Positions 24,937-30,343 of a stretch of 64,000 nt of DNA are shown here, piece after piece. The position numbers and the translations under genes are program-made. A model generated the notes under the pieces. That model had not been told where the DNA came from. It was given only the letters and a program-made list of their open reading frames with translations, and made no database searches. How positions within the stretch are numbered: position 1 is the stretch's first letter; each line of letters opens with the position of its first letter. The stretch comes from Pseudomonadota bacterium. GTDB taxonomy: Bacteria > Desulfobacterota > Desulfobulbia > Desulfobulbales > SURF-16. The DNA is taken from positions 1-64,000 of the forward strand of contig JAHJKA010000022.1 in the NCBI GenBank assembly GCA_018822545.1. Direction: 5' to 3'.

Positions 24937-26041
24937 ATGTCAGCAGAACTGCAACAGAAACTTCAAGGGTACAAAGACCGCCTTCAATCCTTAAAGGTGC
25001 ATCTTTGACTTAGCTCACAAGCAATTACAGCTCGCCGAACTCGAACACCGCACCATGAACCCGGACTTTTGGACTGACCCGGACAAGGCCCGCCAGACCC
25101 AGATTGCCATTGGCCGTCTGCAGGACCCCATTGATGGCTGGCAGAGCTGTTATAATATCGTTGAAGATGCCGAGATCCTTCTTGAACTGGCCCACGAAGA
25201 AGGTGACGCCGACACCGAGCAGGAGGCTGCCGACACCGTCGCAATCTTGGGCAAACGTCTGGAGAGTTTCGAGCTTGAGTGCATGTTCAGCGGCGAGCAT
25301 GACACCAATCATGCCATGCTCACCATCCATGCCGGGGCCGGCGGTACCGAGGCCCAGGACTGGACCGATATCCTGCTGCGCATGTACCTGCGCTGGTGTG
25401 AGAAAAAAGATTTCCCCACCGACATTCTTGATTTGCAGCCCGGCGACGAGGCCGGTGTCAAAAGCGTCACTATGATGATCAAGGGCCGGTGTGCCTACGG
25501 CTACCTGCGTTCCGAAATGGGTATCCACCGTCTGGTCCGCATCTCACCCTTTGACGCCAGTGGCAGACGTCACACCTCCTTTGCCTCGGTCTTTGTCTTT
25601 CCAGAACTTGACGATGACATTGAGGTGGAGATTCTCGACAAGGACCTGCGCATCGATACCTACCGGGCAAGCGGCGCGGGCGGCCAGCATATCAACAAGA
25701 CGAGTTCGGCAATCCGCATCACCCATATCCCCACCAATATTGTTGTCCAGTGTCAGAATGAACGTTCCCAGCACCGTAACAAGGATACGGCCATGAAGAT
25801 GCTCAAGACCCGGCTCTATGAACGGGAACAAGAGCTACAAAAAGAACAGCATGATCAAATCAGTGGTGAGAAAAAAGAGATCGCCTGGGGCAGCCAGATC
25901 CGCTCCTATGTCATGCAGCCATATCGCCTGGTCAAAGATCACCGGACCAATCAGGAAAGCGGTAATGTCGATGCCGTGATGGATGGCAATCTCGACCCCT
26001 TTATCAAGGCCTACCTCCTATGGCAGGGCAACAAGAAATAA
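24937..26041 (+). CDS. prfB: peptide chain release factor 2, made by programmed +1 frameshift
   Basis: RF2 terminates at UAA and UGA. Translation starts at ATG 24937; codon 23 is CTT, followed by an in-frame TGA at 25006-25008. Skipping T25006 continues in the +1 frame to 26041, giving about 367 aa, the normal RF2 length. Both signature motifs are present: SPF (RISPFDASGRR) for UGA/UAA recognition and GGQ (SGAGGQHINKTSSA) for hydrolysis. Calling only the open frame from 25055 loses the N-terminal domain. The Fe-S gene start overlaps the end by 22 bp. In a cell that decodes UGA as Sec, RF2 level also sets the competition at those codons. Confidence 0.95.
24993..25009 (+). promoter_or_regulatory. 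programmed +1 frameshift site of prfB
   Basis: An SD-like AAAGG at 24993-24997 precedes the slippery CTT-TGA-C at 25003-25009, the same arrangement as in E. coli prfB. Low RF2 slows termination at the UGA and promotes the shift, giving autoregulation. Confidence 0.93.
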
Positions 26042-27225: not shown

Positions 27226-27263
27226 TACTTTGAACTACGTTTTTTTTAATAAAAGGAGAGTGT

Positions 27264-28115
27264 ATGAAACTACGACAGAATATCATTGTAATCCTTATTG
27301 CCCTTTGCTTGCCAGCACCGACGCTGGCGGCCGTTGACTGGTCGGTGGACAAAACCATTGAGACCAAGACGGCCATCAAAAACATGGCAACATCCTTTGA
27401 CGGCAAAACCTTTTTTATCCTCACCAAGGCTGGCGAACTGGTGATGTACGATGATAACGGCATCATCCAAGGCAACATGAAAGTTGCGCCGGGTATGGAC
27501 AAAATCTTCCTGAGCGGTTTTCAAAAGGCCGGCGTGCCTGAGCAGCTCATTGTCGTAAACTCAACCACCGGCCAGATGCAACAACTGTCGTTCAGCGTGG
27601 TGGCCAAAATCGACATTACCGGCAGCCCCTTTTTGGGCAACCCTGAGGCCCCGGTGGCCCTGGTTGTCTTCAGCGACTTCCAATGACCTCACTGCGCCCA
27701 AGCCGGGGCGTTACTCGAGCAGGTGCTCGAGCAAAATGCAGACACCGTAAAAATCGTCTTCAAACATTTCCCCTTAAGTTTTCATGCCCAGGCCCAGGCG
27801 GCGTCCCTGGCTTCTATTGCCGCCCATAAGCAGGGCAAGTTCTGGCAATACCACGACCTGCTCTATGAAAACCATAAAACCCTGACCACCCAAAGCTATG
27901 AAACATTTGCCACCCAGCTTGGCCTTGATCTCACCGCCTTTAACCGTGACCGCCAGAGTGCGCAAGCCCGCGACCAGATAGGTGCCGACATCAATATCGC
28001 CAAGGAAGCAGGCGTCAGCGGTACTCCCGCCATCTTTGTCAACGGTCACCGAGTTAACCAGAGGAGTCTGCAGGTGATCCAGTCGATGATCGATGCGGAA
28101 CTCAAAAAACGCTGA
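27264..28115 (+). CDS. DsbA-like thioredoxin-fold selenoprotein (UGA-encoded Sec at residue 141)
   Basis: 283 codons plus stop, read through a TGA at 27684-27686. Both flanks lie in the same frame and form one DsbA-like protein. A GGAG site precedes ATG. Residues 1-22 are a signal peptide (LIALCLPAPTLAA), so it acts in the periplasm. Residues about 23-120 form an extra N-terminal domain. The thioredoxin fold follows with FSDFQ-U-P-H-C, where homologues have C-P-H-C, so the UGA replaces the attacking cysteine. The cis-proline loop is GVSGTPAIFVNG. A hairpin suitable as SECIS lies at 27714-27731. It probably oxidises, reduces or isomerises disulfides. A nonsense pseudogene is the alternative, but position and hairpin argue against it. 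Confidence 0.92.
27714..27731 (+). promoter_or_regulatory. SECIS-like hairpin of the DsbA-like selenoprotein
   Basis: CTCGAGC and GCTCGAG form a perfect 7-bp stem with an AGGT loop. The loop starts 34 nt after the UGA, within the range I recall for bacterial SECIS elements (16-37 nt). The AGGT loop resembles fdhF and the first hairpin of the selenopeptide gene. Confidence 0.8.
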
Positions 28116-28118
28116 GGG

Positions 28119-29177
28119 ATGTCCTTCGCCCCTTCGCCAGACTCAGGGACCAAACAGAATCGGATCGGCAGACATGAACGAGGTGGAAAAATAAAAAAAG
28201 AACTCACCTTCACCAGTAATAACACCGCACGTCTGCTCTACGGTGACCTAAACCGTAACCTCCATGAAGTGGAAAAAGGCATCGGCGTCAAGATCACGGC
28301 CCGTGGTACCCATCTCACAGTGAGCGGCGCCGAACATGAGGTGGATCTTGCCGCCCAGACGCTCGAGCAGCTCTATCTGCTTATTGAGGCGGGCTATCCG
28401 GTTTATTCTCAGGATGTGGCGTATGCCATTCACATCCTGGAAAAATCGCCCCGGGCCGACCTGAAAGATATCTTTCTCGACCAGGTCTACATTACTTCCA
28501 GGCAACGGGTGATTTCACCCAAGAGTCTGAACCAAAAGAGTTATATCGATGGCATACGTCATCACGACATTGCCTTCGGCATAGGTCCGGCCGGTACCGG
28601 CAAGACCTATCTGGCTGTGGCCATGGCCATTGCCGCCTATACCAGCCACCAGGTTAAATCAATTATTTTGACCAGACCGGCGGTGGAGGCTGGTGAGCGC
28701 CTGGGTTTTCTGCCAGGGGACATAGCGGAAAAAATAAACCCCTATCTCCGCCCCCTGCTTGATGCCTTAAGCGACATGCTGGGCCGCGAAAAGGCCGGGG
28801 AACTTATTGAACAGGGAGAAATAGAAATCGCCCCCCTGGCCTTTATGCGCGGCCGCACCCTTAACAATGCCTTTATCATTTTAGACGAAGCCCAAAACAC
28901 CACCTACGAACAGATGAAAATGTTCCTCACAAGGCTGGGCTTTAATTCCAAGGCCGTTATCACCGGCGATATAACCCAGGTGGATCTCCCCTACAGTCAG
29001 CAGTCAGGCCTTATGGCGGCCTCCCGCATATTGAAAAAAACCCCAGGCATCAGCTTTACCCACTTCAACGAAACGGATGTGGTCCGTCACCCCCTTGTCC
29101 AGAAAATCATCATGGCCTATGAGGCCTCAGAGAAGAAATCGGCCACCAAAAAGAAAAAAACCTCTGATGAATGCTAA
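28119..29177 (+). CDS. PhoH-like ATPase
   Basis: 352-aa cytoplasmic ATPase with an N-terminal KH-like part (about residues 28-100) and the PhoH P-loop domain: [15 protein letters not shown] near 153-167, [11 protein letters not shown] as Walker B and [12 protein letters not shown]. Adjacent PhoH and YbeY genes are common in bacteria and suggest a shared role in RNA or ribosome quality control. It starts 3 bp after the selenoprotein stop, and its end overlaps the ybeY start. Confidence 0.92.
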
Positions 29178-30343
29178 TGCCTGTTTTACTGACTAATAAC
29201 TACAGTGGCCCCTACCACCTCTGCCCTGCCCTGCTGATCACAAAGGCCGAAAAGATTCTTCTCCTCGCCGGGATGGAAGACCATGAACTCTCCCTGCTGC
29301 TCCTTGACGATCCTGCCATGCAGGAGATCAACCGTCAGTGGCGTCACAAGGATAAGGCCACCAATGTTCTCTCCTTTCCTCAAGGTCAGGATGATGCTTT
29401 TGATCAACACCCCATGCTGGGCGACATCATCATCTCCATCGACACAGCGCAGCGCGAGGCCCAAGATAACGGGCTAACGTTACACCGGTATCTGACCACC
29501 CTACTGGTTCATGGTTTTGTGCATCTGCTGGGCTATGACCATGAACGTTCGGATGACGATGCCGATGAGATGTTTGCCCTGGAACACTCTTATTTAACAG
29601 CCATAGAAACAAGGAGAACGAAGATGGTTAACCTCGCCATAAATGTTGACCACGTGGCCACCCTGCGCCAGGCCCGCGGCAACACCGAGCCTGATCCTGT
29701 CACCGCTGCGGCCATTGCTGAATTGGCCGGTGCCGTGGGTATTGTCGTGCATCTCCGGGAAGACCGGCGCCATATGCAGGACCGTGATATCGAAATTCTG
29801 CGCAAGACCGTGCAGACCAAGCTCAATCTGGAAATGGGTGCGACGGAAGAAATTATTAAGATTGCCCTGAACCTGGGGCCTGACATGGTCACCCTGGTGC
29901 CGGAAAAACGTGCGGAGCTGACCACCGAAGGTGGCCTTGACGTGGCCGGCCAAAAGGCCAAGCTCAAAAAGGTCATTGCCAGGATGACAAAGAAGAATAT
30001 CCCGGTGAGTCTCTTTATTGATCCTGACTCGGCCCAGATTCAGGCCTCCAAAGAAGTGGGCGCCACCTTTGTGGAAATCCACACTGGTCGCTACGCTGAC
30101 GCCACCAGTGAAGAAGAGGAAGATAAGGAATTTTTACTCATTGCGGCAGCGGCGGAAGAGGCCTACGAGTCCGGCCTGCGGGTCAATGCCGGTCATGGTC
30201 TCAACTATGTCAATGCCGGCAGAATAGCAGCCCTGCCCACCATTGAAGAGCTTTCCATCGGCCATGCCATCATGGCCCGGGCGATCTTCACCGGCCTTGA
30301 CCAGGCAGTCCGCGAGATGGTGGATATCTGTAGATTCGCCTAA
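29171..30343 (+). CDS. in-frame YbeY endoribonuclease / PdxJ pyridoxine 5'-phosphate synthase fusion
   Basis: One open frame of 390 codons carries two complete proteins with no stop between them. Residues 1-151 are YbeY, with the zinc motif [11 protein letters not shown] (H114, H118, H124), involved in 16S rRNA maturation and ribosome quality control. Residues 152-390 are PdxJ ([13 protein letters not shown] near its start), which makes pyridoxine 5'-phosphate. The PdxJ methionine (ATG 29624) is preceded at 29611-29616 by AAGGAG at good spacing, so free PdxJ can be made by internal initiation as well as the fusion. The start overlaps phoH; ATG 29177 is an alternative. Confidence 0.9.

Follow-up and report, generated by a model that had tools for sequence, protein, structure and literature searches.

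The locus and its reading frame

The analysed DNA, from a bacterium of the sulfate-reducer type, is a window of 64,000 nucleotides (positions 1 to 64,000 of contig JAHJKA010000022.1), on whose forward strand lies a gene for a DsbA-like protein with a single in-frame TGA, at residue 141 (Table 1). The original prediction described two open frames split by one TGA exactly where homologues have the attacking cysteine, and the base-level reading confirms this, the frame continuing open from the internal TGA to the terminal one. With selenocysteine (Sec) at the internal TGA, the active site becomes U-P-H-C and the predicted 283-residue product comprises a signal peptide, which had also been proposed and which precedes the domain as a hydrophobic segment, a roughly 80-residue N-terminal domain and a thioredoxin domain of the DsbA type. 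The first start codon 3' of the internal TGA, GTG 27723, lies past both active-site positions, so that the post-TGA fragment is not sensible as a gene of its own and was rejected as one.

Table 1. Features of the gene and its product, with positions in the window and the basis of each assignment
Feature	Position	Strand	Basis
Shine-Dalgarno-like AGGAG	27254..27258	+	read in sequence, 5 nt before ATG 27264
Selenoprotein gene, 283 codons including one Sec, stop TGA 28113-28115	27264..28115	+	base-level reading, homologues
Predicted signal peptide, residues 1 to about 23, MKLRQNIIVILIALCLPAPTLAA	27264..27332	+	hydrophobic segment, 70/70 homologues
N-terminal domain, two four-stranded beta-propeller blades, residues about 38-118	27375..27617	+	AlphaFold models, profile against PDB, structure matches
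Thioredoxin_4/DSBA catalytic domain, residues 121-278	27624..28097	+	Pfam; BdbD 3eu3 Z 23.1
In-frame TGA, selenocysteine 141	27684..27686	+	sequence, homologue codons
Resolving cysteine 144 (TGC)	27693..27695	+	invariant, 70 homologues
bSECIS hairpin, 7 bp, loop AGGT	27714..27731	+	pairing, covariation
Gly253-Thr254-cisPro255 loop	28020..28028	+	homologue alignment
Terminal TGA as stop, without hairpin	28113..28115	+	sequence, hairpin scan

The gene order is CorC, Lnt, prfB, a GlcF-like Fe-S protein with CCG domains, the selenoprotein gene, PhoH and YbeY-PdxJ, where Lnt, prfB and PhoH are what we take these genes to be from their own sequences. PhoH adjoins the gene at 51/70 of the relatives' loci and the Fe-S protein at 39/70, flanks being short at many of these loci. 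The neighbours give no hint of a substrate. The prfB gene (RF2; 24937-26041) has the usual programmed frameshift, its short frame opening at ATG 24937 and reaching an in-frame TGA within CTTTGAC, with AAAGGTG before it, and thus the UGA release factor is encoded two genes upstream of a UGA-Sec gene. The endoribonuclease YbeY and PdxJ are fused in one frame (29171-30343); of the 30 loci where this could be checked, 27 have the in-frame fusion.

A hairpin and the Sec machinery accompany the internal TGA

The hairpin proposed for this gene, 7 bp with an AGGT loop, was found exactly so: CTCGAGC-AGGT-GCTCGAG forms a perfect stem directly downstream of the TGA, with the loop starting 34 nt after it and a G in the small apical loop, as in a bSECIS element. 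Only 0.7% of the window's TGA trinucleotides (17 of 2540, both strands counted) are accompanied by a perfect 7-bp hairpin in a bSECIS-like place. When open frames on both sides and a minimum of 6 bp are demanded, three candidates are left in the window, among which only the TGA at 27684 has 7 bp. The gene's terminal TGA has no comparable hairpin (best 2 bp), and an Rfam scan of the gene returned nothing relevant and no bSECIS family match.

The original prediction would have fallen had the genome lacked Sec machinery; it encodes SelA (625 bits), SelB (365 bits), SelD in two copies, one with an in-frame TGA, and tRNA-Sec (72.8 bits, anticodon TCA). The TGA-containing SelD (L138, G000:C5:14986-15903) has a GTCCAGGGGACCTGGAC hairpin, and the second SelD, at G000:C50, is without a TGA.

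Sec and Cys have been exchanged repeatedly

We searched 58 genomes from the window's genus, family and order, its own genome included, and found a homologue in 56. Non-redundant homologues spanning the active site number 70: 29 carry TGA at this codon and 41 carry TGC or TGT, and in the alignment TGA and Cys codons share one column exactly. Two genomes of the same genus have the TGA and an identical 18-nt hairpin at 73-75% protein identity; this conservation in relatives removes doubt that the observation is real. The remaining one of the three nearest relatives, the sister species G001, carries TGT and its stem is disrupted, although SelB is still present. L010, a Desulfobulbaceae MAG of the same genus, is the same as G001 in identity, codon and hairpin, which places the host in that group.

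The position of the hairpin is identical in the TGA genes, and a mean of 6.6 of the 7 pairs can form in the 29 Sec genes versus 3.3 in the 41 Cys genes (Mann-Whitney p 8e-12). Both sides of the stem have changed at 3 of the 7 pairs, with 95.9% of cells paired, whereas controls with slid partners reach at most 54%. Third-codon-position identity within the hairpin is 0.77 in Sec genes and 0.33 in Cys genes, compared with 0.45 and 0.39 outside it. These pairing and third-position statistics are built on related sequences, and kinship inflates such simple counts. A test on independent pairs is free of this inflation: the hairpin tracks the Sec codon in 8.4 of 9 pairs and the opposite never occurs (p about 0.008). 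On a maximum-likelihood tree from which the Sec column and the columns coding for the hairpin were left out, there are 14 Sec/Cys changes, 9 of them forced by well-supported branches. At least 9 switches are therefore needed and 14 probably occurred, with their direction left undecided on this unrooted tree.

One Cys homologue (L097, G043:C86) has TGC at the Sec position yet a perfect CTCGAGCAGGTGCTCGAG hairpin, in a genome that keeps SelB. This hairpin may be a bSECIS fossil left over from a recent Sec stage, or it may reflect codon preference. Second, shorter DsbA-like homologues occur at G007:C54, G009:C21, G025:C39, G027:C19, G029:C25, G042:C127, G045:C121 and G052:C421, at 30-37% identity; they consist of the catalytic part only and have one in-frame TGA each. 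The homologue search gave no second, shorter match in the window's own genome.

Could the TGA be a nonsense mutation or a miscalled Cys codon? The TGT of the sister species would fit either, but TGA stands at this codon in two fifths of the homologues, across many genera, with a covarying hairpin. A sequencing error at 27684-27686, which the original prediction had named as a way to be wrong, is excluded because assemblies made independently, from several genera, also have TGA here. Conservation of the TGA thus refutes pseudogene and error alike, and we consider this reading vanishingly improbable. Hardly better placed is the insertion of some other residue, through a changed code or near-cognate suppression, for which nothing speaks beyond the open frame itself: the same gene terminates at TGA, RF2 is encoded nearby with its usual frameshift site, and the Sec machinery is complete. 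Code reassignment was rejected on these grounds. Because the TGA is conserved, the hairpin follows the switches and SelA, SelB, SelD and tRNA-Sec are all in the genome, sequence comparison identifies the gene as a selenoprotein gene, neither a pseudogene nor an error, and UGA 27684 is almost certainly decoded as Sec.

The N-terminal domain is built of two propeller blades

An extra N-terminal domain was part of the original prediction; the domain is real and present in 70/70 homologues, though its identity as two propeller blades had been missed. Pfam has no family for it and gave only sub-threshold propeller matches. A structure search run on the complete model covers residues 111-283 only, and so the domain was predicted and searched alone. 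AlphaFold models it as two four-stranded blades (mean pLDDT 85), with the last strand weakly modelled. Its identity was resolved by a search of the domain profile against PDB sequences with hmmsearch, in which the propeller of surface-layer protein 1l0q matched at E 2.3e-14, along with many other propellers. Foldseek matches are mainly propellers and weak (best E 2e-3); they include the two-blade proteins Cake2, v13Bagel2 and 6r5x (by its title, four 2-bladed fragments that make up an 8-bladed propeller) as well as Ph1500, a homohexamer with 12 blades. VIA matches have Z about 10. Four-stranded repeats with a sequence relation to known propellers mark the two units as blades.

Two blades are unable to close a propeller alone. 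The two-bladed fragment most likely joins several chains. Two-blade WD40 fragments assemble as tetramers (PMC6805158) and Pizza2 as trimers (PMC7337062). In a tentative model, three or four chains would pool their two-bladed domains into one closed propeller hub of six or eight blades, from which three or four Sec disulfide-isomerase arms would extend in the periplasm.

Catalytic domain and redox role

The description of the product as a DsbA/DsbG-like protein with a cis-Pro loop is borne out: PF13462 scores 99.6 bits (cut-off 23.2) and PF01323 72.3 bits (cut-off 25.6), and the nearest solved folds, tied or nearly so, are BdbD (3eu3, Z 23.1), 3gyk (23.0), alpha-DsbA2 (22.6) and ScsC (about 21). 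Comparison establishes the fold family, as it does the conserved Sec codon with its hairpin and the machinery. Wherever a homologue has letters at these columns it shows Thr-cisPro, and Gly precedes it in 62/67. Five bacterial disulfide isomerases that have been characterised have Gly-Thr-cisPro in common, as found here; for telling an isomerase from an oxidase by sequence, the strongest indicator is an oligomerising extension of at least 50 residues at the N-terminus (PMC6450060). The DsbA-like fold assumed at the outset stands; what had been overlooked is that the blades and Gly-Thr-cisPro favour an isomerase-like over a DsbA-oxidase-like role. The middle dipeptide of UPHC is that of the E. 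coli oxidase DsbA and counts against an isomerase; the two classes overlap in this motif (PMC6450060).

The own genome also encodes a separate Cys-type DsbA-like protein (CETC) adjoining DsbB and a TlpA-like protein (L136:3477-4957, G000:C89), and thus already has an oxidase. No VKOR was found in this genome and, in an assembly that is 85% complete, no DsbD/CcdA-type reductant, which counts against an isomerase or reductase. Across the 58 genomes of the order, DsbB occurs in 17, VKOR over cut-off in 3 and DsbD/CcdA over cut-off in 36; set beside a family present in 56, these counts mean that no single known partner explains it.

The protein might still be a Sec-containing DsbA-type oxidase, in which Sec141-Cys144 would put disulfides into secreted proteins and be re-oxidised by a membrane partner. 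UPHC matches the CPHC of DsbA, the domain is a DSBA domain in Pfam, and BdbD, the best structural match, is a disulfide bond formation protein. Yet the known oxidising partner is usually absent where the family is present, the genome's own DsbB adjoins another DsbA, and Thr-cisPro and the N-terminal domain suit isomerases better (PMC6450060), which leaves the oxidase possible but doubtful. It is unlikely that the two blades instead fill in, or bind to, an unfinished propeller on a partner or substrate, thereby aiming the Sec domain at one client. The blades' inability to close a propeller would be met in this way too, and a propeller is part of HpDsbI, a Dsb partner of Helicobacter (PMC4597128); but no conserved propeller-blade neighbour was noticed among the GlcF-like Fe-S protein, PhoH and YbeY-PdxJ, and designed two-blade fragments self-assemble (PMC6805158). 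An oligomeric Sec disulfide isomerase or reductase is favoured over the oxidase because of the propeller blades, Gly-Thr-cisPro, the separate DsbA/DsbB pair and the lack of a single matching partner, although we put the chance of this specific role at about even.

Taken as a whole, the best explanation is a Sec-decoded, possibly propeller-assembled disulfide isomerase or reductase that is not the cell's main oxidase (probability roughly 0.6). SelB and tRNA-Sec would decode UGA 27684 at the hairpin, and the product would be secreted as a periplasmic thiol-disulfide oxidoreductase. By analogy with the DsbA/thioredoxin fold, the Sec141 selenol would attack substrate disulfides, Cys144 would resolve the mixed selenenyl-sulfide, and substrate would be held by the Thr-cisPro loop. 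The two-bladed fragment most likely links chains into an oligomeric enzyme that would work in the isomerase or reductase direction, drawing electrons from a presumed source.

Relation to known proteins

Reports of DsbA-like and DsbG-like selenoproteins date from 2005-2006, with the DsbA-like ones (COG2761/PF01323, UxxC) described from the Sargasso Sea and bacterial genomes (PMC1088965, PMC1794560). They are alike in fold and in the position of UxxC; the consulted parts of these papers describe neither a two-bladed N-terminal domain nor the present family in the order concerned. A 2026 inventory includes both groups and equates the DsbG-like one with NF041057, a UxxC prokaryotic selenoprotein (PMC13188914). 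This family (Rcas_1661 family thioredoxin-like (seleno)lipoprotein) shares the U/CxxC thioredoxin domain, and 12/12 A1 members match its model. However, the window protein scores 97 bits, short of the curated cut-off of 190, over model positions 71-246 only, and it has no lipobox. With the match at half the cut-off and the N-terminal region unmatched, the sequences place the window protein as a distinct subfamily of the known DsbA/DsbG-like selenoproteins.

PmScsC, CcScsC and alpha-DsbA2 are similar in catalytic fold (Z 21-23), in Gly-Thr-cisPro and in an N-terminal extension that exceeds 50 residues (PMC6450060), but here the extension consists of beta-propeller blades and the nucleophile is Sec, and the oligomer and activity are putative. 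WRAP/6r5x, Cake2 and Pizza2 likewise have two four-stranded blades, 6r5x and Cake2 being among the Foldseek matches. These, in contrast, were designed or cut from full propellers, while the window blades form a natural fused domain whose assembly is putative. In the library searched, a literature search on propellers and DsbA-like isomerases found no description of a two-blade plus Sec-DsbA architecture, and one for the Desulfobulbaceae selenoproteome found no paper.

Implications

Standard annotation breaks this gene into two truncated frames and thereby loses an enzyme that few other periplasmic redox enzymes of the order match in conservation. If the blades do assemble, they would represent a new way of building an oligomeric disulfide isomerase. 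The family is also a natural experiment, in which Sec and Cys have been exchanged at one catalytic position at least 9 and probably 14 times, in the same gene and usually in the same neighbourhood, with hairpins at all stages of upkeep and decay and a Cys-containing sister species that keeps SelB. Thus, the question of why Sec is used rather than Cys becomes testable with matched enzyme pairs.
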